DNA of 64,000 nt from contig LR134389.1 in assembly GCA_900637675.1 (NCBI GenBank), forward strand, positions 930,001 through 994,000, written 5' to 3'. A program made the position numbers and the translations under genes. The notes under the pieces were generated by a model. It saw nothing but the letters and a program-made list of their open reading frames with translations, made no database searches and had not been told where the DNA came from. The stretch comes from Streptococcus equi subsp. equi (GTDB lineage Bacteria > Bacillota > Bacilli > Lactobacillales > Streptococcaceae). Below are positions 424 to 64,000 of the stretch, one piece after another. The first letter of the stretch is position 1. Each line of letters begins with the position of its first letter.

Positions 424-2567
424 GTGATGAAGAAATATTTAATCTTTGTTGGTTTGCTCTTGTCTGTGATTGGCTTGAGCTATTATTGTTGTGATATTGA
501 TGGTCGCTTGTACCTGCCGGTCTCTAACCAGTCAGCTATTCGGACAGTCTTTTACACCAAGGACAAGCGCATATATGATCAAAAGGGATCTCCTTATCTC
601 ATCAAGGGTGTTGATGTGGAGAGTTCCATAGCAGGCTATCGTCGACGAGACCTTAGCGTTGATGAGAAAACCTACTATAGGTGGTTCAAGCAAATAGCAG
701 CTATGGGTGCAAATACGATCAGGGTAAGGGTTATTATGCCCGTCACTTTTTACCATGCTTTGAGACGCTACAATGACAGAGCAAGTCATCCTCTGTACCT
801 ATTACAGGGCTTTAGAATAGATGCTTATCATGACAATTCTTCTATCAGCGCCTTAGATAAGGCTTATTTAGGCACTCTGTTAAGGGAAGCTAGGGCTAGT
901 GTTGATGTGATTCATGGGAGAAAACGGATCTGGCATTCGGATTTAGGGCTTCAGCATTATGATCAGGATATGAGTAAATGGCTACTCGGCTATATTGTTG
1001 GTGATGATTGGTACAGTGGGACGATAGCCTATACCAATCATCAGAATCACGCCAAGCCTGTAGGCTTTAAGGGAAGGTATTATGCAACGACACCTCAGGC
1101 CAATCGGTTTGAGGCTATACTGGCTGAAATCATGGAGGAAATCACGTCATACGAGAGCCGCAAATATGGCTGGCAGCACTTGGTGAGCTTTTCAAATACG
1201 CCTCAATCAGATCCCTTTGTCTATCAGGATCCCTTTGCCTCTCAGGCAGCAAAATATGTTCAACTGACGATTGAAAATATTAAGCCCAGCGCTAAGGTTA
1301 AGGCCGGTCTTTTTGCTTCCTATAAGCTCTTGGATTGTCACTCGGCTTATAGGGATTATCTGCTATTTGACCGTCTAGGGCTTACTGATAGGCTTGTTGG
1401 GGATATTAAGCGCATGCCCTTATATCAGGGATACGTCAAGCTACTGACGAGCTATCATCGTGTCCCAGTGGTTGTGACGGGCTATGGCTATTCGACAGCC
1501 AGAGGTGTGGACCAAATGATATCGACTTCCAGCCCTTTGACAGAAAAGGATCAAGGCGAGCGCTTGATGGCAGATTACACAGCCTTTATTGCGTCTGGCT
1601 GCTGTGGTGCAACGATCCATAGCTGGCAGGACGATTGGACTGCTAGGAGCTGGAATACCTCCTTTGCAACCAATAAACATCAAAGCTTTCTTTGGGGTGA
1701 TGTTCAGTCTAAGGCTCAAGGTTATGGTCTCTTAACCTTTGAGCATGCTCCAAGGACGCATGCTATTGATGGGCAAAAGGCAGCAGATGAGTGGTCTAGA
1801 GCTCTAACCTACAAGAAAAATGGGCAGCAGCTCCTCGTTGATCAGGACGAAAAATACCTCTATATTGCTATTGAATCGACAAAAAAGCAGCCCTTACAAA
1901 GACAGTGGCTCATTCCCTTAGACATTACGCCCAAAACAGGCAGCAGGGTTATTGAAGGCTTTAGCGCTCGGTTTGATCGCTTTGCTGATTTTGCCCTTGT
2001 TGTTGATGACCACAAAGGCAGTCGCCTCTTGGTGCAGGAGCGCTACCATGCTACTGATGCCAATTACCTTAGGCAGATTAATGGAAAGGACTTTTATGTC
2101 TTTCCCCCTAACAAGCATACGCCAAGATTTACTATGGTTGATATGGTGGTGAGAAATGATGGTATTTTTGCAGCCATTGATCAGGTTCCGATTGCAAAAA
2201 GAGGACTGAAGCGCTACCCTACCGGCCAATTAAAACAGGGCAATGGCAAACGAGGCTCGGCTCATTTTGATTCGCAGACCGATATTTCTTTTGGCGAGCG
2301 TCTGATTGAGCTTAGGATTCCCTGGCAGCTGCTCAATTTTCTGATCCAGCTTCAAACAAAATACACGATGATTATTTTGAGCACTATGGTGTTGAGGAAT
2401 TAGCCATTGAAGCAATAGCTATTGGTTTTGCACCGCTAAAGGAATCAAAGGTCATTGCAATGGTAGAGTATCCACTGTTGAGCTGGGAGCGTCCAAGGGT
2501 AAGAGAAGTTTTAAAGACCTCCTATCAGCAGGTGCAGGCTGTCTGGCAGGAAAAGAGGAGAAGATAA
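424..2567 (+). pseudogene. Secreted glycosidase-like (TIM-barrel type) protein, frame broken near 2340
   Basis: Translation starts at GTG 424 or, more likely, ATG 427, after GGAG at 414-417. The N-terminus is a signal anchor (KKYLIFVGLLLSVIGLSYYC). The next region, around residues 45-110, has a DQKGSPYLIKGVDVE...MGANTIRVR pattern like the start of GH2/GH5-type TIM barrels; a conserved-looking SWQDDWTARSWNT segment and a beta-rich C-terminal domain follow. The frame runs into a stop at 2401-2403, but adding one T to the TTTT run at 2337-2340 restores FSDPASNKIHDDYFEHYG and carries the protein to the stop at 2565-2567 (about 713 aa). It probably acts outside the membrane on the polymer made by the downstream GT2. 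The exact enzyme family is not certain. Confidence 0.6.
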
Positions 2568-2568
2568 G

Positions 2569-2691
2569 ATGATTTATTACCTGTTGTTTTTTTATATAAT
2601 CGTTTGCTTAGCGATCCTTGCCTTTAATATCGGGTATTTGATGAAGCAGACCTTGAGACGCTTTTGTAAGGCGAATGGTAAGCACAAGTGA
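2569..2691 (+). CDS. 40-aa membrane peptide of the exopolysaccharide locus
   Basis: This short ORF starts one base after the restored stop of the glycosidase-like gene and has a good ribosome site (AGGAG at 2556-2560, 8 bases before ATG). The product has one hydrophobic segment (YYLLFFYIIVCLAILAFNIGY) and a basic tail (KQTLRRFCKANGKHK), so an N-out/C-in single-pass peptide is expected. It ends 23 bases before the GTG start of the GT2 gene. The tight spacing and its own ribosome site argue that it is real; it may be a small partner of the synthase. I know no family for it. Confidence 0.55.
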   Translation: MIYYLLFFYIIVCLAILAFNIGYLMKQTLRRFCKANGKHK

Positions 2692-2714
2692 TTGCATGTT
2701 AAAGGAGAATGATA

Positions 2715-4109
2715 GTGCAGCTACTGTTTTTAGTATTGAAATACTCCCAATATCTTTTTTTAGCGTTTTTGATTGCCTATGCGAGCTTTTTACTGCTATC
2801 CTTAATTGTTGGGACTATTCACCTTTATGAAAGGCGACAGCAAGCGCCTGTTGGTGGTGATGTTTCTTTACCGCCAGTGTCTATTTTGGTTCCGGCCTAT
2901 AATGAAGAGCTAACCATTATCGAAACAGTGGAGTCCTTGCTGATGCTTGATTATGACTGCTATGAGATTATTGTCATTGATGATGGGTCAACAGATCATA
3001 CCGCCAAGCTCTTGAAGGAGCAGTTTCATTTAGAAGCGGTGACTTGTTCGATTAATCAGCGGATCCCAACACGCCCTCTAAAGGCTGTAAGCCAAAAGCA
3101 GCTCAAGCATATCAAGCTGACCCTGCTTGAAAAGGCAAATGGCGGCAAAGGAGATAGCCTCAATCTTGGGATTAACGCTGCTCAATACGATTATTTATTG
3201 TGCATGGACGCTGATTCGATGCTACAGGAGGATTCGCTTAAGCGTATTGCAAAGACTGCTGCAAAGGATCCGTCTGTCATTGCTGTTGGGGGCATGGTCA
3301 AGGTTTCGCAGGGAGTAGCATTGGCAGCTGGGAGGATCGTAGACTACCATTTGCCGCGTCAGCTTATTTCGTGTGCGCAGGCAATTGAGTATGATTGTGC
3401 CTTTTTTGGAGCTCGTGTTTTATTAGACCAGGCTGCTGGGAATTTAATCATATCAGGAGCGTTTGGACTGTTTAAAAAAGAGCTTGCGATTGCTGTTGAT
3501 GGTTATGACACTGGGACTCTGGGAGAAGATATGGAGCTGGTGATGAAATTACATTTTTTCTGCCATAACAACAAGATTCCTTATCGTATTGGCTATGAAA
3601 CAGACGCTATTTGCTGGAGCCAAGCGCCCAGTCGCTTGAAGGATTTGTGTCGGCAAAGGCGTCGTTGGTTTTTAGGACTGTATCAATGCTTGAAAAAGTA
3701 TCTCCAGTTTTTTGTAAGCTGTCGGTTTAAAGCGACGGTACTCATTTCCTATGTGCTGTATCTTTTGTTTGAGCTTTTATCTCCTTTTATTGAGGCATTT
3801 GGTGTTATTATCATTGTGCTGTCTTTGCTATGCCATCAATTAAACACAACCTTTTTTGTGTCACTGATGCTGCTCTATATTTGCTATTGTGTGCTTATTG
3901 CGTTGACATCGTTTTTAAATAGGGTTTATTTGCAAAACAATAGTAGCATTACTCTTTTTGATATGGCTTGGGTAATCTATGCTGCCATCTACCAATGCCT
4001 TGTTCTTCATACGGTATTAACCCTTATCAAGGTGAGCAGCTTTATTGGTTATCAGCGTAAAAAGAATGCCTGGGGACAGATCACAAGAGACAAGCACAGG
4101 GCAGCTTAA
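2715..4109 (+). CDS. Processive family 2 glycosyltransferase (exopolysaccharide synthase type)
   Basis: Membrane synthase of about 464 aa with the hyaluronan/cellulose/PgaC-type layout: N-terminal membrane segment (about residues 5-35), cytoplasmic GT2 domain and several C-terminal membrane segments. Visible motifs are VIDDGSTD near 85, CMDADSM (the DxD-like metal site) near 164, GEDMEL near 270 (catalytic base) and RQRRRWFLG near 313 (the Q/RxxRW motif of processive enzymes). ATG 2709 sits only one base from the AGGAG at 2703-2707, so GTG 2715, with 7-base spacing, is preferred. The polymer is not identifiable: poly-GlcNAc or a beta-glucan are both possible. This is not HasA-like in its neighbours. 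Confidence 0.75.
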   Translation: MQLLFLVLKYSQYLFLAFLIAYASFLLLSLIVGTIHLYERRQQAPVGGDVSLPPVSILVPAYNEELTIIETVESLLMLDYDCYEIIVIDDGSTDHTAKLLKEQFHLEAVTCSINQRIPTRPLKAVSQKQLKHIKLTLLEKANGGKGDSLNLGINAAQYDYLLCMDADSMLQEDSLKRIAKTAAKDPSVIAVGGMVKVSQGVALAAGRIVDYHLPRQLISCAQAIEYDCAFFGARVLLDQAAGNLIISGAFGLFKKELAIAVDGYDTGTLGEDMELVMKLHFFCHNNKIPYRIGYETDAICWSQAPSRLKDLCRQRRRWFLGLYQCLKKYLQFFVSCRFKATVLISYVLYLLFELLSPFIEAFGVIIIVLSLLCHQLNTTFFVSLMLLYICYCVLIALTSFLNRVYLQNNSSITLFDMAWVIYAAIYQCLVLHTVLTLIKVSSFIGYQRKKNAWGQITRDKHRAA

Positions 4110-4148
4110 CTAGGAGCTCTTAGTCTGTTTTTTGAGCCTATACAAGAC

Positions 4149-4202
4149 AAAGCCTTATCATTTCTTGCGCAAAGCAGCAGATGTGAAATGGTAGGCTTTT
4201 TT
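4149..4202 (+). terminator. Terminator after the exopolysaccharide locus
   Basis: The arms AAAGCCTTATCATTTC and GAAATGGTAGGCTTT pair with a small bulge around a loop of about 20 bases, and six T follow. It separates the GT2 gene from rexB. Confidence 0.6.
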
Positions 4203-4266
4203 CATGCTGTGAGCGCTTCTTGTGGCGTTTGAAAGATCATTAACAATGGGAAAAGCAAGGCTGATT

Positions 4267-4275
4267 TGTTATAAT
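4267..4275 (+). promoter_or_regulatory. Extended -10 promoter of rexBA
   Basis: TGTTATAAT is a perfect -10 with the TG extension, 43 bases before the rexB start; no convincing -35 is seen, as is common for extended -10 promoters. Confidence 0.5.
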
Positions 4276-4317
4276 GGAGGCATAGACGTTGTATCAGGTC
4301 CAAATAAAAGGAGTTTT

Positions 4318-7300
4318 ATGAAATTACTATACACAGAGATTAGCTATTCCATGACAGAGATTTTAGTCAAAGAGGCAAGAGCTTATGCTGATAAGGGCTA
4401 TCGTGTCTTTTATATTGCTCCTAACTCTCTATCCTTTGAAAAGGAACGTTCTGTCCTAGCCTTATTGCCAGAGCAGGGTTCCTTTGCTATTACGGTGACC
4501 CGCTTTGAGCAGATGGCGCGTTATTTTACCTTAGCTAAGGCAGCTAATCGACAAGCGTTAGATGATAATGGCTTAGCCATGATTTTTTATCGTGTGCTCA
4601 TGCAGCTGCAAGAAGATGAGCTAAAGGTTTTTCACCGGCTACGGACAGATCAGGCCTTTATTGCCCAGTTAGTTGAGCTATATAAGGAATTGCAAGCAGC
4701 TAATCTGACAGCCTTTGACTTAACGACGCTTGATAGACCAGAAAAGCAAGAGGACCTGATCACGATTATGACCAAGGCTGAGCAGCTGATTGCACAAGGA
4801 GATTACGACCAGTCAAGTAGGCTGGCTCAGCTTGCTGAGGCTATCAAAAGCAAGAGCCTAGATGACGAGCTAAGGCAGACCGTATTAGTGATTGATGGCT
4901 TTACCCGCTTTTCAGCTGAGGAGGAGCAGCTGCTAGCGCTCTTAAACGAAGCCTGTGAAGAAATCGTTATTGGAGCCTATATCAGTCAAAAGGCTTATCG
5001 ACTAGCCTTTACCAAGGGAAATCTCTACGAGGCGAGCCTTGCGTTTATCCAACAGCTGGCACAGCAATTTCAAACCAAGCCGATCTACACAACGTCAGAA
5101 AAGGTCTTTGATGTGTCATTTTCTCGCCTAACACAGCTTCTTGAAGCCAATCATGACTATTCAAAGCTTGATTGGCAGCTCAGTGCCAAGGACAAGAGCA
5201 AGGTTGTGATCTGGCAAGCGCTCAATCAAAAAGAGGAGCTTGAGCATGTTGCAAAGGCTATTCGTGAGAAGCTCTATCAGGGTTATCGCTATAAGGATAT
5301 GCTTGTCCTTTTAGGTGATGTGGCGTCTTATCAGCTGCAAATTGGTCCTATTTTTGAGAAATTTGAGATCCCTTATTATATCGGCAAGCAAGAGCCGATG
5401 TCTGCTCACCCCTTGGTTCAATTTGTCGAATCCTTAGAAAGAGGCCGCAGATACAATTGGCGACGTGAGGATATTGTCAACTTACTAAAATCAGGACTCT
5501 TTGGGCGCTTTCAAGAGGGAGAGCTGGATCAGCTTGAGCAATACTTGGTCTTTGCTGATATTCAAGGCTTCACCAAATTTTCAAGACCCTTTACCCTAAA
5601 TTCCTCACGTCAGTATCCTTTGCCTCTTTTGAATCAGCTGCGACTTGCTGTGGTGACTCCTCTCCAGCAGCTCTTTAAGAGTCAAAAGCAGCTAGGGGCT
5701 TCCCTACTTGATAAGCTAATGACCTTTTTTAAGACCATTCAGCTGGCTGATAATTTTGAGGCACTAGCAGGCAGTAGAAGGGAGACTGATAGGGAAAAGG
5801 ACGAGGAGGTTTGGAAAGCCTTCACAGGCATTTTAGAGACCTTTTATCAGGTGTTTGGTCAGGAAAAAATGACCCTTGCAGACTGTCTAGCTCTGATCAA
5901 GATGGGCATGCAGACAGCACATTATCGGACAGTGCCTGCGACCTTAGATGTTGTGTCTATCAAATCCTATGATCTGGTGGAGCCGCATTCCAAGCCCTTT
6001 GTGTTTGCGATTGGCCTGAGTCGCTCCCATTTTCCTAAGCAGACAAAAAACACCAGCCTGATCTCTGATCAGGAAAGGGCAAGCATCAATGAGCAGACTG
6101 CCTCTTACCAGCGCCTTGATGTGCCGAGCTTTGAAAATATCAAGAAAAATCACCAAACAGCACTTTCCCTGTTTAATGCAGCGACGCAGGAGCTGGTGTT
6201 AAGCCTGCCTACAAGCTTAACGAATAGCTCAGATGATGTCTCTCCTTACCTGAAGGAGCTAATTGCCCTTGGTGTTCCAGTCATTGAAAAAGGAAAGAAC
6301 CGTTTGTCACACTCAGCGGCAGATATTGGCAATTATAAGGCTCTCTTGTCTCGCTTGGTGGCTATTAATCGGCAGGGAATTGCAGATGACATGACCAGTG
6401 AGGACAGAAACTTTTGGACGGTTGCCCTTCGTTATTTGAAACGTAGGCTAGCCGATGAGCAGCTAAGTCTTCCAGCTTTTGAGCATCATTTGACTACTAA
6501 GCCAGTAGCACCTGAGGTTATTGAGACCCGCTTTTCAAGTCAGCAGCCCTTGAATCTGTCTTCATCGGCCTTGACTGTATTTTATAACAATCAATACAAG
6601 TATTTCTTGAAATATGTCCTAGGGCTGCAAGAGCCAGAGTCTATTCACCCAGATGCTCGCATTCATGGTCAATACCTGCACCGTATTTTTGAGTTGGTAA
6701 CCAAGGATAGGTCTAATGCTGCCTTTGACCAAAAGCTAGGCGCAGCTATTGCAGCAGTTAATCAGCAAAGCGCTTTTCAGCAGGTTTATCAGGCTGATGC
6801 TGAAGGGCGATATAGCTTAGAGGTCCTAAAGGGGATTGCTTACTCAACAGCCTCTGTCTTAGACCTTAATCAAGGCCTGCAGATAACCAAGCAAGAGGAG
6901 GCCTTTGAGCTAGCGCTGGGTCAGCAAGTGCTTATTCGAGGGGTTATTGACCGTATTGACCAGCTAGCTGATGGTAGGCTGGGCATTGTGGACTACAAAT
7001 CCAGTGCAAGGGTATTTGACATTGTTGCCTTTTACAATGGCTTGAGTCCTCAGCTTGTGACCTATCTTGCTGCCCTAAAGAATAAGGGGCAGGGCCTGTT
7101 TGGCGCCATGTACCTGCACATGCAAGAGCCAAGGCTAAGTCTGTCTGACTTTAAGGCACTTGATGATCAGCTAGTAGCTGCGGCTTACAAGGAGTTAACC
7201 TATAAGGGCATTTTTTTAGCCCAAGCCAAGGAATATCTGGCTAATGGCAGCTATCACCTTAACAACACACTTTATGAGACTGATGAGCTAGAAACCCTGC

Positions 7301-7539: not shown

Positions 7540-10500
7540 TGAAGGCTTTCTAACGCCAGAGGCTATTGCTCGTTTGCAGCAGGAGGAGGCCTTATCAGAT
7601 AAGACGCACAAGCGGACAGCGCAGCAGATTGAGGCTATTTATAGCAGTGGACAAAATATCTTAGTATCAGCATCTGCTGGCTCAGGTAAGACCTTTGTTA
7701 TGGTTGAGCGCATTTTGGATAAGATTCTAAGAGGTATTCCGGTTGATTGCTTATTTATTTCGACCTTTACCGTAAAAGCAGCTACTGAGCTAATAGAGAG
7801 AATTGAAAAAAAGCTGCACACAGCTATAGCAGAGACTCAGGATTATCAGCTCAAGGCCTACCTTAATGACCAATTGCAGGCTTTATCACAGGCTGATATT
7901 GGTACGATGGATGCCTTTGCTCAGAAATTGGTTCACCAGCATGGTTATGTTTTAGGGATTTCACCGCATTTTCGTATCATACAGGATAAGGCAGAGCAGG
8001 ACATTTTAAAGCGCGAGGTCTTTCGTCAGGTTTTTGAAGACTATATGTCGCAGACTGACAATAAAGCCTTTATACAGCTGGTGCAGAATTTTCTGGACGT
8101 CGTAAGGATAGCTCAGCCTTTAGAGAGATTGTTGATAGCATTTATGCCTTCAGTCAATCAACTGCCAATCCTAGCAGTTGGTTGGCAGAGGTCTTTTTAC
8201 GAGGGTCTAAGACCTATACCAGCTTTACAGATATTCCAGACCAAGCTGTAGATGCTCTCTTAGCCTGTATGCAGGACACTGCTGATCAGCTGCGAGACCT
8301 CACAGACATGGAGGGTTACGCTCAAACAACCAAGGCTGGCAAGCTAACTGCCAAATACACTAAGCACCTCAAAATGATTGACAGCTTATATGAGTGGGCT
8401 TTGCATTTTGACAGCCTTTACGGTAAAGCGCGACTAGGTCAGCTAGCACAGGAGCTAACAGCTTTACTTCCTTCAGGAGCTGATATAACTGTAGCCGGTC
8501 ACAAATACCCTATTTTCAAATCGCTACAGGAGCAGCTGGTAAGATTTAGGCACTTGGAGACTATCCTTGCTTATCAACAGGAGAGCTTACCACTTTTGGA
8601 GGTGCTGCAAGCCTTTGTGATCAGCTTTTCAGAGGCTTATTTGGCTGCAAAAATGCAAGAAAATGCCTTTGAATTTTCAGATATAGCTCATTTTGCCATT
8701 GAGATTTTACAACAGGCTCCAGATATTCGCCAAGCTTACCAAGGTCATTATCATGAGGTCATGGTTGATGAATACCAAGATAACAATCACATGCAGGAGC
8801 GCCTATTAGAGCTGCTGTCTAATGGCCATAATCGTTTTATGGTTGGGGATATCAAGCAATCCATCTATCGCTTTAGGCAAGCAGATCCTCAAATCTTCAA
8901 TCAAAAGTTTAAGGATTATCAAAGCAATCCCGAGCATGGCAAGCTGATTTTACTAAAGGAAAATTTCCGCAGTCAGTCAGAGGTCCTAAATGTCACCAAC
9001 GCTGTCTTTAGCCGCCTTATGGACGAGTCTTTAGGAGAGATTACCTATGATGACAAGCACCAGCTGGTAGCAGGCAGTGAGGGACAAAGACAGCCATATC
9101 CTAACAATCGAGCCCAATTGCTGCTCTATGACACCGATCAAGTTCAAGAAGGCACCGAGGAAGCCTTAGCTAACGATGGTATCTCCGCAGGTGAGGTCAT
9201 CTTAGTGGCTAAGGAAATCATCAGGCTCTATAACGAGGAGAAGGTTGCTTTTGAAGATATTACCCTGCTTGTTTCGTCACGCACACGAAATGACACTATT
9301 TTTCAGGTCTTTAATCAGTATGGCATTCCTCTCGTTGCTGATGGTGGCCAAGAAAATTACCTCAAATCAGTTGAGGTGATGGTCATGCTGGATACGCTAA
9401 GAAGCATCAACAATCCTTTGAATGATTATGCCCTAGTGGCCTTAATGCGCTCGCCAATGTTTTCCTTTGATGAGGATCAGCTGGCAAGAATCTCACTGCA
9501 AGGCAGCTCACAAAAGCAGCCTCAAGCCTTCTATGACAAGCTTAGCAATAGCTTGAGAGGACAAGGCGAGCACCCAGAGCTGATCGGTCAGGAGCTGATG
9601 ACAAAGCTGGCTGATTTTGATGGGACCTTGAGAGACTGGCGTCAATTTGCAAAGCTTCATTCGCTTTATGAGCTGATTTGGAAGATTTTTAACGATCGCT
9701 TTTACTTTGACTTTGTAGCAAGCCAGCCAAAGGCAGAGCAGGCTCAGGCAAACCTTTACGCCCTTGCTATACGGGCTGACCAATTTGAGCAATCAGGCTA
9801 CAAGGGACTCTCACGCTTTATTGGCATGATTGATAAGGTGCTGGAGACGCAAAATGATTTGGCAGATGTTGAGGTCGAAAGGCCTAAGCATGCTGTTAAC
9901 CTCATGACAATTCATAAATCAAAGGGACTTGAATTTCATTACGTGTTCATTTTGAATTGCGACAAGCGCTTTGCGATGGCTGACCTACAGGCGCCAATCA
10001 TTCTAAATAGAGATGAGGGAATCGGTATCAAATATGTCGCCAATGTAAAGGAGCTTCTAAGAGAAGAAAAATTGGCGTCGCTCAAGGTTACGATGGAAAC
10101 TCTTCCTTACCAGCTCAATAAGCAGCAGCTACGCTTGGCGACCTTATCAGAGCAAATGCGTCTCTTGTATGTGGCCATGACGCGAGCAGAAAAAAAGGTA
10201 TACCTCATTGGTAAGGCTAGCAAGGAAAAGGTACAGGAAAAAACAGCCGACAATAGCTCCGAAGGACGCTTAGCCTTAGCTAGTCGAGAAAGATTGCTGA
10301 GCTTTCAAGACTGGCTACTAGCGATAGCAGCAACATTTAGCAAGGAGGACTTGTTTATTGATGTGCGATTTGTTGATGACAGTGACTTAACACCAGAAGC
10401 TGTTGGTCAGCTAAGGCCCTCAGGGCTGCTGCAAGCAGATGATCTCAAGGATAACCGTCAAACAGAGGACATTGCGCGTGCCTTAGACATGCTGGATAAG

Positions 10501-31147: not shown

Positions 31148-33573
31148 GTGACCATTATAATAACGAAGATAATTTCAAAAGCTCGCCAGTTAGTTGATCT
31201 AGAAATGCTTGATATGATATTGTTTAGCCTTTCATCTCTTTATTTATCTATTTTTGCGGTAAGCAAAAACACGTTAAATAAGGGAGCTTATGGTTCGTGG
31301 CTTGTCTTAGTGTTAATAGCTGGAATGGCATGTTTGCTGATCAAGCATGCTTCCTCAAAGCTGCTTATTGTTTCTGTAGCTGTCAGTAGCTACTATGCTG
31401 TTGCTAATAGCTATATCACCTTAGCCATCAATAAAAACAACAGCAGGTTTACCATCAGTAATCGTACGATTCAGGAAATGCTACTCAGTCTGGCAGCTTT
31501 AGTCAGCCTGCTTATTTTAGGGGTTCTCTTAAAAAATACCTGTTTAAGAAGGACTACCAATCAAACAGAGGAATCCAAGTCATTTTACTTAGTCAGGCTT
31601 TTTCAGTCTTAACGCTGAACAGCTCTTTATTTAAGACTGTGATTAAGCAAAATGATTATTGGCCTTTAGATAGTCAGTCAAACCTTGTTAGCCTGAATCT
31701 CTTTAAGTATAGCTTTTGCTCTTATATGCTGACGTTTGTGGTTTATTACCTCATCGTCACAGCCTTTATCGAGGTTTTGAGCAAGCGATGGGGTCTTAGA
31801 TTAGCTCTAGTGACCAGCTTATTTTTAGGGATCATCTTTAATTACTTTATTCAGGCTGGGATCACAGCATATGGTGATTTTCATGGGGCAGTGATTATTC
31901 CAGGTGCAACCCTGTTTCAGGTGCTTGTCTTGACCCTCTTTTTTGTGCTGGTGTTTTTGCTCATTAACAACTATATCATTGCTTTATTTGTCAATACGGT
32001 GATCGGAGCTTTAATCAGTATTGTTAATATTGAAAAATACAAGCAGCGAAGTGAGCCTTTATTGTTTTCAGATTTGAAATGGATCAAAGAGATTAAGTTT
32101 TTCTTGAATTACATTAGTCTGACTCAAATCATTAGTATTATTTTGATACTAGTCTTGTCGGGTCTGCTGATCTATGTTTTGTATAAAAGATACTTTAGAG
32201 AAAAGATCCTATCAGCGCTTTATCTTAGACTGATGTCAATAGGCTCTATCCTTTTGGTATTTGCCTCTATCCTTTTTGTATTTAGCCAAAATAAAGATGG
32301 TGAAATCAAAAAAGGTATTCCAGTTCTGTCATCAGTCTACAATGTCTTTGATATTGACTGGTATGGTCTTACAACCAATGCAAGGTTTCAATCCTTGAGC
32401 TTTGTTTGGTTCAAGCAGGTTACCACCAGCACCATTAATCAGCCTTCAGGCTATAGCAAGAGCGCTATGCAAAAGATTTATCAGAAATATCAAGCTAGAG
32501 CTGCTGATATCAATAAGCAAAGGCATCAGCGTATTTCTGATCAAACAGTGATTTATATACTGAGTGAGAGCTTTGCTGACCCAGCTAGGATTTCTGGGGT
32601 TCAATTGGCCAAGGATCCTATTGCAGAGATCCATCATATCATGGAAACCACAACGAGTGGCCTAATGACCTCTGATGGCTATGGCGGCGGTACAGCTAAT
32701 ATGGAGTTTCAAAGCCTATTTGGCCTACCAAAATATAACCTCAATCCAACAGTTTCGATTTTGTATTCTGATGTCTTTCCTAAGTTGAAGTTTTCGCCTG
32801 CCATTAGTAATGCCTTTTCGCCTAAGGATAGGATTGTTTTGCACCTTGCGAGCGCCAACAATTACTCTCGAAAAATCGTTTACAACAAATTGGGATTTGA
32901 TACCTTCATTGCCACAGAGGATTCAGCTGACAAGCCAAAGCACTTGATACGAATGAGCTCAAGCTATAGTGATGAGTCAACCTATGACAATATTTTAGAC
33001 CAGCTTAACCCCAAAAGAAGTCAATTCTTTTCAGTGATTACCATGCAAAATCATGGCCCTTGGTACACAGAGCTAAGAGATGTTGATGTTAGCCTAGCAG
33101 GACTGGACCAGTCTGAGACGGATAGCCTGCAAAGTTATGTGAATTTATTAAGCATTACCGACAAGTCAACAAAGGCCTTTTTATCAGCACTGGAAAAGGT
33201 TGACAAGCCTATTACAGTTGTGTTTTATGGTGATCATTTACCTGGCTTTTATCCAGATCAGGTCTTTAAGAATGATGAGGAGGTCAAATATTTAACAGAT
33301 TATTTCATCTGGAGCAATCATCAGACCAACAAATTGGCTAGACCTCGTGTTAATTCCAGTGATTTTACCTCTTTATTGCTAGAGCATACGGATTCCAAGG
33401 TGTCTCCTTACTACGCTCTTTTGACAGATGTCTTGGATACCAGAAATAGCGATGACAGCCAGCTAACTGCTGCTCAAAAGCAGGTGGCCTCTGACTTAAA
33501 GCTGTTAGAATATGATCTTATTGAAGGCAAGGGCTACATTAATGCCTATCCTGATTTCTTTAAAATGAAATGA
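31148..33573 (+). pseudogene. gacH: Glycerol-phosphate transferase of the group carbohydrate (GacH type), frame broken at 31531-31536
   Basis: Homologue of GacH, the LtaS-like enzyme that moves glycerol phosphate from phosphatidylglycerol to the group carbohydrate outside the cell. GTG 31148 follows AGGAAAGG. Membrane segments fill residues 1-350; the sulfatase-fold domain shows YILSESFADPAR, DGYGGGTANMEFQSL (catalytic Thr), NHGPWY and VFYGDHLPG. The first frame stops at 31612, while frame 1 is open upstream of 31639 and reads GSLKKYLFKKDYQSNRGIQV...FKTVIKQNDYW. One more A in the A6 run joins the two into about 808 aa, close to GAS GacH. No other damage is seen. Confidence 0.88.
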
Positions 33574-38702: not shown

Positions 38703-38741
38703 TTGTCATATTACACTATATGTTAAGAGGAGAATATTAAA

Positions 38742-40795: not shown

Positions 40796-42981
40796 CTACT
40801 GACTTTGTTCCTTAACGGATTCTTCTTTAGGGTCAGAAGACGAAGTAGATTCAGGTTTTTCGGCTTCTTTAGGATTTAACTCCAGATAAGAAGGTGCTTT
40901 AAAGAGCTTTTGAGTTGATTTGTTGCCATTTTTACTATAAATGCTGGTTGAATGTGATCCTAATTTCTCTGATATCTCTTTGAGTTGTTTTAGCTGCTTG
41001 GTATAAATGAAGGTTGTTGGGTCAACAGGTTTCAGACCATTATCGGTATCAAAGCGTAGTAGGTCTCCTGTTTGGATAGCGTCACTAGCTGCTAGCTGCT
41101 GAGCAACGGCTGCTCGTATTTCTTTGACCTTAGCCATTGTCATCTCATCAGGGTTTGTAATTTCCAAGCCTGTTTGAGTGTTGTAAAGGCGACCGCTATA
41201 GCTAGTGTAGTCTGGCGTGATATAAGTTCCAGAGGTTCTTTGTGCTACCATTTGACTATTTTGTGGCGACAAGAGATCCTGTCCTAGTTGAACCATCTTG
41301 CTGGTATCAATGCCCAAGATATGCAGTAAGGTTGGTAAGGAATCAATTTCTCCGCCAAAGGTTTCTTTGATCCCGCCATTGGTATAGCCTGGAATATGGA
41401 TCATATATGGTACACGCTGGAGCATTGCATTGTCATATTCGGACCAAGTTTCAGGGTCTTTACCTAGTAATTCTGCCAAGCTGACATTTCTGGAATTAGA
41501 AATACCATAGTGGTCACCATATAGAACAAAGATAGAATTGTCATAAAGTCCTGTCGCCTTGAGATAATCAAAAAATGATTTCAAGGCTGAATCCAGATAG
41601 TTAGCTGTAGCAAAGTAACCATTGATGGTTTCATCATCGGTTTTGGCTAGTGGAAAGCCCTCTTCACTGCTTTCGCCTCTAAGGCTGGTGTAAGGGTAGT
41701 GGTTGCTGACGGTAATAAACTTAGTGTAGAAGGGTTGTTGAAGCTGTTCAAGGTACTTGATAGAATCTCTAAACATGTATTTGTCATTTAGGCCATACTG
41801 GAAAGAGTTTTTATCAGTCTGTTTTGAAAAATAGCTTGAATCAAAAAAGTAATGATAGCCCCATTGCTTATAAGCATTATTGCGATTCCAGAAGGTTCCT
41901 ACATTCCCATGAAAGACGGCACTAGTATAGCCGCCATTTTGTGCTAGGATTGATGGTGTGGCGAATTGTGTGTTTTCGCCGCCATAATTTACCATAAAAG
42001 AACCACTGTTTAAGCCAAATAATGAATTTTCCATCATGGTCTCTGCATCAGACGTTTTTCCAGCCTTGACCTGATGGAAAAAGTTAGAGAAGGCTAGTGT
42101 GGCATTGGAGTGGTAGAGGGAATTAATAAAAGGTGTGACCTCATAGTCCTTGTCGTCATCCTTGAGCTTGTAATCAATAAGAAATTGTTGGAAGCTTTCC
42201 AAGTGGATCACAATGACATTTTTTCCCTTACCGATTCCAAAATATTGAGGATCAGGTGCGGCGTAGTGGTTCTTGACATATTGCTTAACATCGACTAATT
42301 CTTCAGCGGTTGCTCCGTTACGCTCTTTTGTGCTTGATAGGTCTGGTTTCCGCTGTAAATGGTAAAAGCAGGCAATCCAAGCGCTCTAACGATATAGGTA
42401 TTTGAAAATCCTCTAGTCAGAAGCTCCGGGCGGTCAATCTCTGCAAGAAACAGATTAACAGATAAGAGCAAGCAAGACAGTGCTGTAACAGCAAAGGAAG
42501 CCCGCTTGTTAAAAGGACGCGGGTCTTTTTTGATGGTCTTAGTTACTGATAAACTAATCAGAATGATGAAATCAAGGACGTAAACAATATCCCAAATGCG
42601 CAAAAGGTTTAAAGCAGAGTCTCCTAAACCAGCAGAAACCTTACTACTGGCTAGCATAGCACTAACCGTAATGAAATCTGAAAACTCTCGGTAATAAATA
42701 GAATTTGATATTAACAAGAGGTTAAGGATAATATAGACGATCCAAGAGCTGATATAAAAGGCCCTAGTATTCTTGATATAAAGGGTAAATCCCAATAGTA
42801 ACAAAGCTAGAGGGATTGGGTTAATAATTGTTAGAAAGACCTGATAGGCATTTCCCAAATCTAGTGAAAAGTCAGCATGGTAAGCCCATAGGGTTTTTAT
42901 CCAAAAGCAGAAGAGAAGCGTTAGCACAAAGCCTAATCTTGTATTGATAAAGCTTGTGATAAATGTTTTAAAATTCTTCAC
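40796..42981 (-). pseudogene. ltaS: Lipoteichoic acid synthase, frame broken at 42326-42329
   Basis: LtaS polymerises glycerol phosphate from phosphatidylglycerol into LTA outside the membrane. Translation begins at GTG 42979-42981 (MKNFKTFITSFINTR...), with AAGGAAG upstream. Residues 1-190 hold five membrane segments; the outer sulfatase-fold domain begins VIVIHLESFQQF, with the catalytic Thr in AGKTSDAETM and later FVLYGDHYG. The first frame stops at 42295, but adding one base to the four-base run at 42326-42329 gives QAQKERNGATAEELVDVKQYV and joins both parts into about 728 aa, the family length. Upstream of the gene lies a transposon insertion that duplicated its promoter. Confidence 0.93.
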
Positions 42982-43870: not shown

Positions 43871-43909
43871 CCCCCCAAAAGTTAGACATAAAATCTAACA
43901 ATTGGGGGG
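43871..43909 (+). promoter_or_regulatory. Inverted repeat just inside the IS3 left end, in the orfA leader
   Basis: CCCCCCAAAAGTTAGA (43871-43886) pairs with TCTAACAATTGGGGGG (43894-43909), 14 of 16. The right arm contains the G-rich stretch that would be the ribosome site of orfA (8 bases before ATG 43918), so transcripts entering from outside would fold and hide it. Confidence 0.6.
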
Positions 43910-43917
43910 CTATTTTT

Positions 43918-44433
43918 ATGACATTGAGTTATGAAGACAAGGTTCAAATCTATGAGCTACGGCACATTGGAAAGTCCATTAAATGCTTATCAGAAAAGTT
44001 TAGTATTGCAGAATCTGACCTCAAATACATGATTCGCCTGATTGACAGGTATGGGTTAGCCATTGTCCAAAAAGGTAAGAATAGTTATTATTCTCCAGAA
44101 CTGAAGCAAGAGATAATAGATAAAGTTCTGATTGATGGTCAATCTCAAAAACAGACGTCCTTAGACTATGCTTTACCAAATTCTAGTATGCTTTCAAGGT
44201 GGATAGCGCAATACAAGAAAAACGGCTATACTATTCTTGAGAAAAGAAGAGGGAGGCCACCAAAGATGGGACGTCAACCAAAGAAGACTTTAGAACAAAT
44301 GACAGAGTTGGAGCGACTCCAAAAAGAATTAGACTACCTTAGAGCGGAGAATGCTGTGCTAAAAAAGCTGAGAGAATACCGGTTGAGGGACGAAGCAAAG
44401 CTCAAAGAGCAACAGAAATCATCCAAGAATTAA
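43918..44433 (+). CDS. IS3-family transposase OrfA
   Basis: 171-aa DNA-binding subunit with a helix-turn-helix N-terminus ([26 protein letters not shown]), a second HTH, the [11 protein letters not shown] linker of the IS150 group and a C-terminal leucine-zipper-like helix ([23 protein letters not shown]). The heptamer AAAAAAG at 44361-44367, in the frame A AAA AAG, is the standard slip site giving the OrfAB fusion. Confidence 0.9.
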
Positions 44434-45259
44434 TCGGTCAATTTTCTCTAGCAACTTTGCTTGAAATCCTTGATTTATCGCGGTCAACCTATTATTATCA
44501 AGTCAAGCAACTAGCTCAAGAAGATAAGGACATGGACTTAAAGGAGCTCATTCAAGGCATCTATGATGAACATCATGGCAATTATGGCTATCGTCGCATT
44601 CATCTGGAACTAAGAAATCGTGGTTTTATCGTCAATCACAAAAAAGTACAACGTTTGATGACTGTCATGGGCTTAAAAGCTCGTATCCGTCGTAAGCGCA
44701 AGTATTCTTCTTACAAAGGTGAGGTTGGCAAAAAGGCTGATAATCTGATTAAACGTCAGTTTGAAGGTTCTAAGCCCTACGAGAAGTGCTATACCGATGT
44801 GACGGAATTTACCTTACCTGAGGGGAAACTCTATCTATCGCCTGTTCTTGACGGCTATAACAGTGAGATTATTGATTTCACCCTGTCTCGATCGCCTGAC
44901 TTGAAGCAAGTACAAACCATGCTTGAGAAGGCTTTTCCAGCGGATTCGTACAATGGAACGATTCTCCACAGCGATCAAGGCTGGCAATATCAACATCAGT
45001 CTTATCATCACTTTTTGGAGACTAAAGGCATTCGTCCATCCATGTCTCGCAAGGGAAATAGTCCAGATAATGGGATGATGGAGTCCTTCTTTGGTATTCT
45101 CAAATCTGAGATGTTTTACGGCCTTGAGACAACTTATCAATCCCTTAATGAGCTTGAACAAGCTATTACAGATTACATTTTTACTACAACAACAAACGCA
45201 TTAAAGCAAAGCTAAAAGGACTTAGCCCTGTGCAATACAGAACTAAATCCTTTCACTAA
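44361..45259 (+). CDS. IS3-family transposase OrfB (by -1 frameshift), broken near its end
   Basis: The frame one base back from orfA is open from the slip site (reading [18 protein letters not shown]...). The catalytic DDE residues are in [17 protein letters not shown] and [15 protein letters not shown]. The frame stops early at 45215, but one more T in the five-T run at 45178-45182 restores [20 protein letters not shown] and the stop at 45257-45259. The core catalytic domain is complete either way. Confidence 0.85.
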
Positions 45260-45291
45260 TATGTCGTGTCCAACTTTTGGGGGTCAGTACA

Positions 45292-55480: not shown

Positions 55481-56530
55481 TTAGCTCAGTTTCTGCCATA
55501 TGTCCTTGCCACTGGAAAGCGTAAATAAGCCTAATACTTGAGCGCCAATGTTTTCTCCTTCTATTTTCTTGGCAGAAATGGCGACATGTCTATGAGCATT
55601 AATGCCGACAAAATATTTTTTCATACCAATAGACGCATTAGCATCTGAGTCTGTGACATAGATGGCCTCAAGGTTTCCTTCAGCATTAAAATCAGCTCCC
55701 CACAAGTTAATCACATGGCTAATGCTAACATTGGCGTAGGTATGTGATAAAGCAAGGGCTCTTCCTTCAGTCAGTTCTTGCTTGATAATGGTGCTGATGT
55801 CATTTAGTCCTTTATTTTTTAAATCATGACGAGCTGTCAAGAGCGTTGTCTGATCTCCTCTGGTGAAAACAGCATCGAAAATACCACCTCGTTTGTCCTT
55901 GTCCTGATAAGGTCGATTGACATCAGTAGACTGTGTTTTAAACACATTTAAGTAGTAACCATTGATAAACATGTCTAGAACAAGATCAGGCATAACCCCG
56001 AGTTGACGTGCTGATAGATTTGGAAAGGCTTTATCTCTAAAATAATTAAAAAGCTGACTATTGGTTTGACTGTCCTTGGTATCGATAGCAGCTTTCAAAT
56101 CAAATAGCTCTTGGTTGTTAAAAATGATTTTTTGCTTTTCAGGGTGTTTACTTAAATAGGCTTCAATCTCTGTTTTATTTTGATCAAACCACCAATGCAG
56201 CATATTACCTGCCGTTGCTGCGCCACACAAGAGATTATCCTTCCCATCGAAGGCCTTGGTGATATCGTACCAGCCTTGATGAGCAAGATATGGCGCATGG
56301 ATCACATCTTCGTTATTATATCGAAACTGCTCGGGTGTTAGTGGTGTAACACCTTTGGTCCATACAGAAGTGATCTGATGTGGTACTTCTTTGGCATAAG
56401 CTTCCGTAGCATTCCTTTGGTAATCGTCAGCATAAGTAATGTTTGAACTCGCCAGGCTAAAAATAGCTATAGCAGTTAAGAGACCAGCTGATAAGGAGTG
56501 AGGTTTATTTGGATAAGCTATTGTTTTCAT
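55481..56530 (-). CDS. ideE: Secreted IgG-cleaving cysteine protease (IdeE/IdeZ, Mac/IdeS family)
   Basis: 349 aa from the ATG at 56530 (MKTIAYPNKPHSLSAG), preceded by AAAGGG; earlier codons in frame are leader. Signal peptide to about residue 34 (SSNITYA|DD). It is the S. equi member of the IdeS family, which cuts IgG in the lower hinge. The catalytic residues are visible: Cys in NLLCGAATAGNMLHWW, His in NVSISHVINLWGADF and Asp in IYVTDSDANASIG. Called ideE in subspecies equi and ideZ in zooepidemicus; I cannot tell which. One residue, Arg in NAHRHVAIS, stands where IdeS has Gly. Confidence 0.96.
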   Translation of the reverse strand: MKTIAYPNKPHSLSAGLLTAIAIFSLASSNITYADDYQRNATEAYAKEVPHQITSVWTKGVTPLTPEQFRYNNEDVIHAPYLAHQGWYDITKAFDGKDNLLCGAATAGNMLHWWFDQNKTEIEAYLSKHPEKQKIIFNNQELFDLKAAIDTKDSQTNSQLFNYFRDKAFPNLSARQLGVMPDLVLDMFINGYYLNVFKTQSTDVNRPYQDKDKRGGIFDAVFTRGDQTTLLTARHDLKNKGLNDISTIIKQELTEGRALALSHTYANVSISHVINLWGADFNAEGNLEAIYVTDSDANASIGMKKYFVGINAHRHVAISAKKIEGENIGAQVLGLFTLSSGKDIWQKLS

Positions 56531-56585
56531 ATAACCCTTTCTTGTTATGGTGATATTATCATTAAATAATGTTAATGACATTTAT

Positions 56586-57895: not shown

Positions 57896-58241
57896 TGGAG
57901 CTGGTGGGAGTCGAACCCACGTCCAAACACCTGCTAACCTATTTGTCTACAACCATAGGTTATGTCTTACTTTAACAGACCAAGGACACATAACTCAAGC
58001 CATCAGCCTGCGAGTCTAGGGTTCTCTTTTTAGGTGACTAGACAATCACCTAAACGTAGCTTGCTGTTTTGAGACCTCTAATAAGACACAAGCAATCCTA
58101 TAGAAGTCACGCCGGCTGGTTTTTAGGCAGCTAAAGCGTAAGTTGTGTTATTTTTTGCAGTTATATTTAACTGGCATTTTTACATCTGCCGATGAGTTGC
58201 AAAATAGGCCTCATAATGCCTGTCGAATCCGTAACAACCCC
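57896..58241 (-). ncRNA. ssrA: Transfer-messenger RNA (tmRNA)
   Basis: The minus strand begins GGGGTTGTTACGGATTCGAC and ends with a tRNA-like GGTTCGACTCCCACCAGCTCCA, the terminal CCA being encoded. The tag frame at 58158-58123 reads GCA AAA AAT AAC ACA ACT TAC GCT TTA GCT GCC TAA, that is AKNNTTYALAA, one residue different from the GAS tag as I recall it. It rescues stalled ribosomes with SmpB. About 346 bases, the normal size. Confidence 0.98.
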
Positions 58242-58331: not shown

Positions 58332-58943
58332 ATGAGAAATAATGAGTTGAAGCCTTATGTGATATGGCAAAAAGTGATTAAGCTATTAGGAAGTCTGGCT
58401 TTAGTCGGATCTTTTTTGCTAGCCTTTTGGTTTTACAGGCTTGGCATTTTAAATGACAGCAATGCACTCAAGGATCTTGTTCATAGTCACAAGGTTTTTG
58501 GCCCCCTTGTTTTTGTCGGTGTGCAAATTGTTCAGATTGTTTTTCCTATTATTCCAGGTGGTATGACAACTATTGCAGGCTTTTTGATTTTTGGCCCTTT
58601 GCTGGGTTTTCTTTATAACTATGTTGGTATCTTCATTGGTAGTGTGATTCTGTTTTTACTTGTGAAGACCTATGGTAGGCGCTTTATTTTACTGTTTATA
58701 GAGGAACAGACCTTTTACAAGTATGAGAGAAAATTAGAGATGCCATATTATGAGAGATTGTTTATTCTCTGTATGCTTTCTCCGATTTCACCAGCAGATA
58801 TTATGGTCATGATTACTGGGCTGACAGAGATGTCGTTGAAGCGTTTTGTGACCATTATTTTAATCACGAAGCCACTATCAATTATTGGCTACAGCTATCT
58901 TTTTATCTTTGGAAAGGATTTGATCCTATGGTTTTTCCATTAA
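58332..58943 (+). CDS. VTT-domain membrane protein (TVP38/DedA-related)
   Basis: 203 aa with about five hydrophobic segments. The central VFVGVQIVQIVFPIIPGGMTTIAGFLIFGPLLGFLYNYVG stretch and the later SPISPADIMVMITGLTEMSLKRF have the Pro/Gly pattern of the VTT (SNARE-associated) domain. Relatives act as lipid scramblases or undecaprenyl-phosphate translocases; the role here is unknown. No ribosome site precedes the ATG, so it is probably leaderless. Confidence 0.85.
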   Translation: MRNNELKPYVIWQKVIKLLGSLALVGSFLLAFWFYRLGILNDSNALKDLVHSHKVFGPLVFVGVQIVQIVFPIIPGGMTTIAGFLIFGPLLGFLYNYVGIFIGSVILFLLVKTYGRRFILLFIEEQTFYKYERKLEMPYYERLFILCMLSPISPADIMVMITGLTEMSLKRFVTIILITKPLSIIGYSYLFIFGKDLILWFFH

Positions 58944-58989
58944 AAAAGTCTAGGCATTGCCTGATAAGCAGTGGCTAGACTTTTTGTTA

Positions 58990-59784: not shown

Positions 59785-59793
59785 GCCTACCTC

Positions 59794-60491
59794 CTAAACC
59801 TTGTAGATCTCTCTAAATAATGAATCAATCGATTGCTGATGCTGAACTCGTAAATCATCAGCGTTTCCAGAAAGGCAGAGCTTACCATTTTTAAGAAAAT
59901 AGCTTCATCAAGTACAGGCTCAATGTCTGAGATGAGGTGAGTAGAAATGATAACAGAGGCTTGCTCAGAGTAATTATTAATAATGGTTTTAAGAATATAA
60001 TCTCTTGCTGCCGGGTCAACCCCTCCGATAGGCTCATCAAGGATATAGAGCTTTGCTTTGCGGCTCATCACGAGGATAAGCTGTGCCTTTTCCTTATTTC
60101 CCTTTGATAGGTTTTTAAAGCGCTCTTCAGCATCTAAGTCTAAATCCTTCAGGAGACTGGTCGCTTTATCTCTGTCAAAATCGGCATAGAAATCACCAAA
60201 AAAGTCTAGCATATCCTTGATTTTCATACTTTCATTAAGATAGGTCGTATCTGGTAAGTAAGAAATGATTTTTTTAGTTTCTACAGATGGTCTAAAGCCG
60301 TCAATAACAATGTCTCCCTTGTCTGGCTGTAAAAGTCCGTTGATTAGCTTAATTAGTGTAGTTTTGCCGCTACCATTTGGTCCTAGTAAGCCGATAATTT
60401 TTCCAGAAGGGATTGTTATGGTTAAATCATCAATAGCTAATTGTTTTTTGTAAGATTTTGAGACGTGGTGCAGCTGTAATAGTTGTGCCAT
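59794..60491 (-). CDS. ABC transporter ATPase, frame broken near its end
   Basis: About 232 aa. Walker A GLLGPNGSGKTT, signature LSKGNKEKAQL, Walker B KLYILDEPIGGVDPAARD and the switch His in ISTHLISDIE are all present. After FLK the frame runs into an alternative end at 59787; one more base in the run at 59888-59892 gives LKNGKLCLSGNADDLRVQHQ...FREIYKV and a stop at 59794-59796. The core is intact either way. Its ATG overlaps the stop of the GntR gene (TAATG). Confidence 0.87.
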
Positions 60492-60862
60492 TAGTTTGAT
60501 CCCTCCTCTAAAAAGGTACTTAAAACAGGAATGATTTCTGAACGTTCAAAACCTATTTTGATCATATTGCTAATAAAGGACTTGAGCTCGTTGATGGCCA
60601 GCTCTCGTCTTTTGCGCGCGATAAGCTCTTGGTTATCTGTTACAAACCGGCCGGCAGTTCGTTGCGAGTAAACTATGCCTTCACGATCTAATTCGGTAAG
60701 TGCTCTTTGCATGGTGTTGGGATTAACGCCGGCAATTTCAGCATATTCTCGGACAGTCGGCAGCTGATCTCCACTTTTGATCTCTTGGCTGACAATTTGC
60801 AGCATGATATGCTGTGCTATCTGTGCGTAAATAGGAGATTTCTCATCAAATTTCCAAGACAT
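60491..60862 (-). CDS. GntR-family regulator (YtrA type)
   Basis: 123-aa repressor: winged helix SPIYAQIAQHIMLQIVSQEIKSGDQLPTVREYAEIAGVNPNTMQRALTELDREGIV, then only a short C-terminal dimer helix, which defines the YtrA subfamily. It heads the operon with the ABC genes and should repress it through the operator over its own promoter. Confidence 0.9.
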   Translation of the reverse strand: MSWKFDEKSPIYAQIAQHIMLQIVSQEIKSGDQLPTVREYAEIAGVNPNTMQRALTELDREGIVYSQRTAGRFVTDNQELIARKRRELAINELKSFISNMIKIGFERSEIIPVLSTFLEEGSN

Positions 60863-60897
60863 ACTGTCTCCTTTCTTTCTAAAATCTGCGATTAATA

Positions 60898-60921
60898 TTT
60901 GTACTAATTAAATGATACAAA
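60898..60921. promoter_or_regulatory. Probable YtrA-type operator
   Basis: An inverted repeat with outer arms TTTGTAC and (G)ATACAAA spaced by an AT-rich centre. It covers the -10 of the gntR promoter, the expected place for autorepression. Confidence 0.6.
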
Positions 60922-60940
60922 AAAACGATTGACTTGTCAA
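60912..60940 (-). promoter_or_regulatory. Sigma-A promoter of the gntR-ABC operon
   Basis: On the minus strand TTGACA (60935-60940), 17 bases, TATCAT (60912-60917). Confidence 0.75.
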
Positions 60941-61069
60941 GCCTTGTGTGTCATCTCTAGTTACATACTGGCTTGCAATGCTAGTGGGATTCCTGCTGAT
61001 AGTGGTGCAGTAAAGACAGATCACTGCTATTAAAAGCTTAAAATCTGGGCAGTAAAGTCTTTTTCATAG

Positions 61070-61075
61070 TATAAT
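61070..61075 (+). promoter_or_regulatory. -10 element of dnaE
   Basis: TATAAT, 28 bases before the ATG at 61104; the -35 region is weak. Confidence 0.45.
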
Positions 61076-61103
61076 GGTAGTAAGAACGCTAAAGGAGATG
61101 TCC

Positions 61104-64000
61104 ATGTTTGCTCAGTTAGATACAAAAACAGTTTATTCCTTTATGGATAGTTTGATTGATTTAGACCATTATTTTAAACAAGCCAAACGATTAGGCTATC
61201 AAGCCATAGGGATTATGGATCAGGATAATCTATATGGGGCATATCATTTTATTAAGGGCTGTCAAAGGCATGGGCTTCAGCCGATTTTAGGTCTTGAGGT
61301 GGCTATTACAGTTAAAGAGCAGGCTCTTACGCTGAAGCTTGTTGCGAAAAATGATACAGGCTATCAGCAGCTCTTAAAGCTTTCGACTGAAAAAATGTCT
61401 GGAGACCTAGACCTAGACACATTGGTGCAGTATTTAGAAGGGATAGCAGTTATCGTTCCTTTTAGTCAGAGCTTGCGTGATTTAGGGCTTCCTTTTGATT
61501 ACTTCATTGGCATTGATGAGGCAAGCGACTTGTCAAAGATAGACTCTACAGAAAGACTGATTCCGCTTAGAACGGTACGTTATTTTGATAATGCTGAGAC
61601 TGAGACTCTGCAAATGCTGCATGCCATTCGTGATAATATTAGCTTAGCAGATACGGCTCTAGTAGCCAAGGATCAGTTTTTAGCGCCTTGTCAGGAGATG
61701 ACGGCTATTTTCCAGGAAAAGTGCCCTGAGGCTTTGGTGAATCTCGTAAATCTAACAGCTTCGATTGCTTATCATTTTGATACTGATTTAAAGCTTCCGA
61801 GATTTAACCGCGATAAGCCAGCAAAAGAAGAGCTAAGAGAATTGACCGAGTCTGGTCTAAGAGAAAAGCAATTATGGAAGGAGCCTTACCAATTTCGTCT
61901 GGCAGAGGAGCTGGCTATTATTTCAGATATGGGGTTTGATGATTATTTTCTCATTGTCTGGGATTTGCTGCGCTTTGGAAGGAGTAGAGGCTATTATATG
62001 GGCATGGGGCGTGGTTCAGCAGCAGGCAGTCTAGTGGCTTATTCGTTGCGCATTACTGGGATTGATCCTGTCAAAAACAATTTATTGTTTGAACGCTTTT
62101 TGAATAAAGAACGCTACAGCATGCCTGATATTGATATTGATTTGCCTGATATTTACCGCTCAGAGTTTCTTCATTATGTTCGAGACCGGTATGGTAGTGA
62201 GCACTCAGCTCAGATTGTTACCTTTTCGACTTTTGGTCCTAAGCAGGCTGTTCGTGATGTGTTCAAACGCTTTGGTGTCCCAGAATACGAGCTAACAAGC
62301 CTAACTAAAAAAATTGGGTTCAAGGATACCCTGAGCACTGTTTATGAGAAAAATATAGCCTTCAGACAGACCATTAATAGCCGCTTAGAGTTTCAAAAGG
62401 CATTTGAGATAGCTAAGCGCATTGAAGGCAATCCAAGACAGACCTCTATTCACGCTGCTGGTATCGTGATGAGTGATGACCATCTGACCAACCATATTCC
62501 CTTAAAAAAGGGGGAGGATATGATGGTGACTCAGTATGATGCCAGTGCTGTTGAAGCTAATGGCTTGCTGAAAATGGATTTTCTTGGTCTGAGAAATTTG
62601 ACGCTTGTACAGAAAATGCAGGAAAAGGTGGTCAACGATTACGGTCTTTCAATTGACATTGAAGCTATTAACCTAGAGGATCCTGAAACGATAGCCTTGT
62701 TTGCTAGGGGTGATACCAAGGGCATTTTTCAATTTGAACAGCATGGTGCGATTAGCCTGTTAAAACGGATCAAGCCGACTAGCTTTGAGGAAATTGTTGC
62801 GACAACCAGCTTAAATAGACCGGGAGCAAGTGATTACACGCAGAATTTTATTAAGCGCCGGCAGGGACAGGAAAACATTGATCTAATAGATCCGGTGATT
62901 GCTCCGATATTAGAGCCAACCTATGGTATCATGCTTTATCAGGAGCAGGTTATGCAGATTGCTCAAGTTTATGCAGGCTTTACACTTGGAAAGGCCGATT
63001 TGCTACGGCGTGCTATGTCTAAGAAAAACCTCGTTGAGATGCAAAGAATGCAGGAGGATTTTCTGACTGGTGCTAGAGCCTTGGGTCGCTCTGAGGAGAC
63101 AGCCAGACTATTGTTTGCACGTATGGAAAAATTTGCAGGCTACGGCTTTAACCGCAGCCATGCCTTTGCTTATGCTGCCCTAGCCTTTCAGCTAGCCTAT
63201 TTTAAAGCGCACTATCCTGAGGTATTTTTTGATGTCATGATGAATTATTCTAGCAGTGATTACATCACAGATGCGTTAGATTTTGGCTTTGAGGCCGCGC
63301 AGGTGACGATAAACACCATTCCCTTCAATGATAAGATTGAGCGTCATAAGATTTATATGGGCTTAAAAAACATCAAGGGTCTTCCTAGAGAATTTTCGTA
63401 TTGGATCATTGAAAATAGGCCCTTTACCAGTGTTGAAAGCTTTTTGTGCAGCATTCCTGAAAATACCAGAAAACCAGCTTCTTAGAGCCCCTTATCAAAA
63501 TAGGCCTGTTTGATGGGTTTGAAAAAAATCGCCAAAAAATCATTAACAACTTAGAAGGACTGCTAACCTTTGTCAATGAATTGGGATCACTTTTTGCGGA
63601 TTCCTCCTTTAGCTGGGTAGAGACTGAGGATTATTCAGCTGCTGAGAAATATTACTTTGAGCAGGATTTGCTTGGTGTTGGCATGAGCAAGCACCCCTTG
63701 CTAGCTGTCGCTGAAAAAAGCACAGTAGCAGTCACACCAATCACAAAGTTAGTGAAGGATACAGAAGCTACTTTGCTGGTTCAAATAGATGCGATCAGGG
63801 TTATTCGGACAAAATCAAGCGGACAGCAGATGGCCTTTTTGAGTGTTACTGATACCAAACAGAAATTAGATGTTACCCTTTTTCCTGAGCAATATGCTGT
63901 CTATAAGCAAGACCTAAAAGAGGGGCATATTTACTATATCAATGGCAGGGTAAAAGAAAGAGATAACCGCTTGCAGCTAGTCTGTCACCAGCTTCGATTA
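61104..64000 (+). CDS. dnaE: DNA polymerase III alpha subunit DnaE, frame broken near 63464, cut by window end
   Basis: The start is ATG 61104 (MFAQLDTKTVYSFMDSL) after AAAGGAGA. The PHP domain comes first (GIMDQDNLYGAYHFIKGC), then the polymerase core: GRGSAAGSLVAYSLRIT, MPDIDIDLPD (two catalytic Asp), QTSIHAAGIV, then LKMDFLGLRNL, which holds the third catalytic Asp. The frame stops at 63485, but one base added at 63463-63464 restores IPENYQKTSFLEPLIKIGLF, open to the window end with an OB-fold-like part. The protein is essential, so this break is probably a sequence error. About 966 of roughly 1,036 residues are inside the window. Confidence 0.94.

Follow-up and report, generated by a model that had tools for sequence, protein, structure and literature searches.

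The 64,000 bases analysed here (the window) run from base 930001 to base 994000 in the genome of Streptococcus equi subsp. equi, the agent of strangles in horses, which is assembled as one contig (2,253,416 bases; completeness 97.69%). Eight genes in the window have interrupted reading frames, among them ltaS, rexA/addA and dnaE (Table 1). The first-pass annotation had described a single-base loss in each, and comparison of the unrepaired window pieces with the open frames of relatives bears this out: all eight genes are frame-shifted at the positions given, each with a net change of -1, seven of them backed by intact relatives or sister copies and the lipoprotein gene by one relative.

Table 1. 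Frame breaks in the window, with positions counted from the first base of the window.
Gene	Position	Strand	Observation
Glycosidase-like gene, near 3′ end	2334..2340	+	net -1 at T run; two-frame matches to relatives G012 and G109
rexA/addA	8089..8092	+	net -1 at T run; 5/5 relatives match in two frames
gacH-like membrane sulfatase-fold gene	31531..31552	+	net -1 at A run; 1/1 relative
ltaS	42304..42337	-	net -1; 5/5 relatives match in two frames
ISSeq3 (IS3 family) orfB	45178..45182	+	base missing; 0/39 other genome copies lack it
Small lipoprotein gene, just past start codon	55157..55177	-	body out of frame with its ribosome-binding site and ATG
ABC-transporter ATPase gene, near 3′ end	59889..59904	-	net -1; Pfam ABC_tran
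dnaE	63461..63545	+	net -1; break placed only to this interval

The glycosidase-like gene has no Pfam or NCBIfam match; its homologs are open over 721 aa in G012 and 717 aa in G109, and for both of these relatives, the two that carry a homolog, the match to the window switches frame at the tabulated site. Both pieces of rexA/addA match NCBIfam TIGR02785; the addA genes of two relatives (L325 in G061 and L326 in G015) are themselves divided between two frames near the N end, at places that differ from that in the window. The gacH-like gene, whose name is taken from the first-pass annotation, is matched in two frames by an 812-aa open frame of G061, and its 3′ piece matches Pfam Sulfatase. For ltaS, the five relatives have open frames of 729-749 aa and four of them place the switch at 42322-42328, and both window pieces match NCBIfam LtaS (NF053595). 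Ten of the 80 loci kept from the relatives search were examined for the two genes nearest the end of the window: all ten match dnaE in two frames, and eight switch frame in the ABC ATPase gene, the other two (L038 and L100) giving no two-frame match. The lipoprotein break is the least supported of the eight. One relative (G076) shares the layout of ribosome-binding site and ATG, and there the ATG is in the reading frame of the body, which in the window it is not; the only other relative matched (G096, E 4.9e-4) has one internal stop, and support was counted from G076. Next to the broken lipoprotein gene, at window 55481-56581, lies an unbroken Mac-1 family gene (Pfam PF09028), which is related by family to the streptococcal IgG endopeptidases.

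Seven of the eight sites lie inside A/T runs of at least four bases, which cover 7.5% of bases (P 1e-7, a flattering value because the first-pass annotation picked the positions). The same annotation had counted seven losses in homopolymers, which leaves dnaE, given there as the single position 63464, as the exception. This exception is doubtful: the missing base can be placed only within an interval, and two A4 runs, at 63460 and 63470, flank 63464, so dnaE may not depart from the homopolymer rule. That all the losses concern A or T mostly reflects base composition, as runs of at least five are chiefly A/T, and G7 runs were contracted in 2/2 cases in the comparator regions described below.

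A homolog scan with relatives' open frames covered 52,985 of the 64,000 window bases (53.0 of 64.0 kb) and returned ten frame-switch clusters, of which six fell at sites in Table 1, six of six being -1. The remaining four were set aside: a +1 cluster at 38728-38736, between the reading frames of infC and rpmI, and three clusters at 58141-58181 inside the tmRNA, where there is no protein gene. No additional break was attributed to a protein gene in the 53.0 kb scanned. The tmRNA gene itself (58141-58181) differs in length by a net one base from its counterparts in S. didelphis and S. pseudoporcinus. An identical scan on relatives, covering 151,890 bases, also gave ten clusters, five of each sign; set against these mixed signs over 151.9 kb, the sign and density of the window breaks are unusual. 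Codon statistics were also used to look for frame switches in 464 kb (the window and 20 further stretches). Three of the eight sites had a switch called close by (at 2322, 8065 and 42323); the 107 candidates were mostly neighbouring or overlapping genes, and the counts were left unused because errors and gene borders could not be distinguished.

In the collections searched, no same-subspecies record covers the seven sites outside the insertion sequence, and each was therefore judged by pattern; a plasmid collection queried with the window returned no S. equi record beyond ISSeq3. Independent records do exist for two other regions of the genome, both outside the window: the Javan179 prophage of strain 4047 (41,483 bases) and a record of strain XJ5012 (15,805 bases; aligned over 17,221 bases because one repeat is counted twice), 57.3 kb together. 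Two more prophage regions were considered (1745-1765 kb and 2080-2100 kb), and the matches listed for them included no same-strain record fit for base-level comparison. The analysed genome is 377 bases shorter than that of strain 4047, a difference in length that was not counted as evidence because the two are different strains. Its prophage at about 142 kb is unlike Javan178 of strain 4047 (54% covered at 94.4%), which indicates a strain other than 4047. The diverging prophage lies at G000:C1 ~142-160 kb (L157), and our guess is that it occupies the site of phiSeq1, a prophage that has been termed dynamic (PMC4561494).

The XJ5012 record (NZ_CP134539.1), a circular 15.8-kb 'plasmid', corresponds to a citrate-fermentation locus that is chromosomal in the analysed genome (G000:C1:1176909-1194125, L182), where it is flanked by two 1.42-kb copies in direct repeat. 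In extent the circle matches the chromosomal interval together with one 1.42-kb copy; it may have arisen by excision or be an artefact of assembly.

The two comparators together revealed 18 indels and 9 substitutions in 57.3 kb. In 17/18 indels it is the analysed genome that lacks one base, each time in a run of 5-8 (15 A/T, 2 G), and the 18th is private to strain 4047. Against Javan179 there were 14 indels and 5 substitutions, with 13/14 indels being losses of one base from the analysed genome in runs of 5-8 (11 A/T, 2 G) and the remaining one a base absent from 4047; against XJ5012, all of the 4 indels (with 4 substitutions) were such losses, in A/T runs of 5-7. A third assembly, IMG/VR provirus contig 2681812816, spans 33.1 kb of the Javan179-matching prophage and sides with 4047 at 10/10 shared sites. 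Compared with each other as a control pair, this contig and 4047 showed zero homopolymer contractions in 33.1 kb, one indel that lies outside homopolymers and is also in the analysed genome, and 59 distinct substitutions. These are different strains that agree on run lengths, which makes the analysed genome the outlier. Outside the window, and in the window for ISSeq3, the independent assemblies thus lack the losses, and the bias of loss over gain (six of six in the window scan) is that expected of homopolymer deletion error in an assembly.

Contraction in the comparator regions depended on run length. Among A/T runs, 0/2227 of length 3-4 were contracted, 3/281 of length 5, 4/128 of length 6, 7/40 of length 7, 1/5 of length 8 and 0/1 of length 9 (pooled, 8/46 for runs of 7-9 vs 7/409 for runs of 5-6). 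No G/C run of 3-6 was contracted (0/606), and both G/C runs of 7 were (2/2, both G7). All 17 losses thus lie in runs of 5-8. Undercalling of short homopolymers, as the first-pass annotation had proposed, does not extend to very short ones, with 0/2810 runs of 3-4 contracted. When the comparator rates are applied to the runs in the window, 11.3 contractions are expected and 8 were observed, all of them genic (P(<=8) = 0.20); intergenic contractions in the window would escape notice.

ISSeq3 provides an internal check, as the genome holds 40 copies, the number also reported for strain 4047 (PMC2654543). The base missing from the window copy (~43900-45291) is present in all 39 others, seven of which have substitutions in or beside the run, and the ISSeq3 copies in the 4047 and XJ5012 records are one base longer over the element than the window copy. 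Four copies, including that in the window, are each one base short at a different A/T run of 5-6, and there is one single-copy interior substitution among the 40. Differences at the element ends were left out of the count: in L171, columns 1-5 plus an insertion at 1381; in L178, 1387; and in L179, 1358-1387, among them two losses outside runs. One of the four counted losses, in L170 at column 14, is also near an element end. Losses thus amount to 0.07 per kb in ISSeq3, roughly one-quarter of the 0.30 per kb in the comparator regions, perhaps due to the element having no run above 6. The 16S copies are identical (6/6) and count neither for nor against error.

At many homopolymers the analysed genome has one base fewer than the independent assemblies, with the difference going almost always in one direction and becoming more frequent with run length. 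The systematic undercalling that the first-pass annotation had suggested thus has the same signature where independent sequence exists (13/14 indels against 4047, 4/4 against XJ5012, and 10/10 sites with the third assembly). We regard it as very probable that the eight breaks in the window are likewise consensus errors of the assembly, single bases dropped from homopolymer runs, and the broken look of the eight genes is almost certainly an ordinary sequencing artefact with no real feature behind it. Errors of this kind would be those of long-read sequencing left without accurate short-read polishing. On this account the window breaks would come from the same process as the losses in the comparator regions, and the cause would lie in the read technology, with the cell not involved. 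Counting against error are the low rate in ISSeq3, the dnaE break, which does not sit clearly in a run, the known occurrence of real pseudogenes in S. equi (PMC2654543), and the judging of the seven sites outside the insertion sequence by pattern. Of these seven breaks, one or two may be real pseudogenes.

Real gene decay, in which a host-restricted pathogen sheds genes and true pseudogenes are among the eight, has a precedent in strain 4047, for which 78 pseudogenes and 58 partial genes are reported (PMC2654543). Evenly spread, the 78 would amount to about two per 64 kb, so that one of the eight could quite possibly be a real pseudogene; the lipoprotein and glycosidase-like genes look the most dispensable. 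As an account of the breaks in general, decay is nonetheless very unlikely: it would mix in stops, insertions and larger deletions, whereas all the breaks are -1 and nearly all are in runs, and the same pattern recurs in regions that are unaffected in independent assemblies. Loss of dnaE and ltaS is also improbable. B. subtilis cannot do without the polymerase activity of DnaE (PMC5627055); the literature searched contained no direct statement of its essentiality in S. equi, and PMC5452409 does not mention dnaE, ltaS, rexA or gacH. Deletion of addA slows the growth of S. equi (PMC7276704), which implies that the subspecies owns a working addA.

The remaining alternatives accept the shortened runs as real, and we give each of them hardly any credence. 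A mutator strain that shortens homopolymers would agree with contraction that is real in the assembly and dependent on run length. However, loss of mismatch repair leads to additions as well as losses and to more substitutions, whereas losses made up 17/18 indels with just 9 substitutions; mutS, the one mismatch-repair gene inspected for a break, is a single open frame of 856 aa, and a broken dnaE should be lethal. No more credible are breaks that are real and rendered harmless by transcriptional or translational slippage back at the runs. Slippage of this kind does occur in bacteria at A/T runs, and IS3 elements pass from orfA to orfB by a -1 frameshift. The ISSeq3 break, however, lies within orfB, away from the orfA/orfB junction, and is shared by 0/39 sister copies, unlike a programmed IS3 frameshift, which sits at the junction and is common to copies; moreover, relatives lack the break at the other sites, and several of the runs are just 4 long as assembled. 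A combination of the two, in which a replication defect biased towards loss would have left the isolate with hundreds of real -1 contractions that slippage makes tolerable, is just as far-fetched.

If the loss rate of the comparator regions held throughout, about 670 bases would be missing from the genome (95% interval 390-1070); at the ISSeq3 rate the number would be lower, near 160. Pseudogene counts and claims of gene loss for a host-restricted pathogen would be inflated if drawn from this assembly, which is the sole one of its species in the set searched. Mutual comparison of high-copy insertion sequences within one assembly offers a cheap internal check.

Similar errors have been described for long-read assemblies. 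In MinION assemblies, deletions were linked to homopolymers, most often of A/T (PMC12007338), and residual homopolymer deletion errors were also present in the nanopore assemblies of PMC8011154. The likeness to the breaks described here extends to single-base losses from homopolymers, A/T most often, and to the apparent pseudogenes that result (PMC12007338; PMC8011154). They differ in run length: most deletion errors in the MinION assembly of PMC12007338 followed runs of four to five, whereas here runs of 3-4 were spared (0/2810). The pseudogenes of strain 4047 also resemble the window breaks, being frameshifted genes in the same subspecies (PMC2654543). However, they were reported from a finished genome and include other types of change, e.g., a 4-bp deletion in a hyaluronate lyase gene (PMC2654543), in contrast to the window, where only one-base losses occur.
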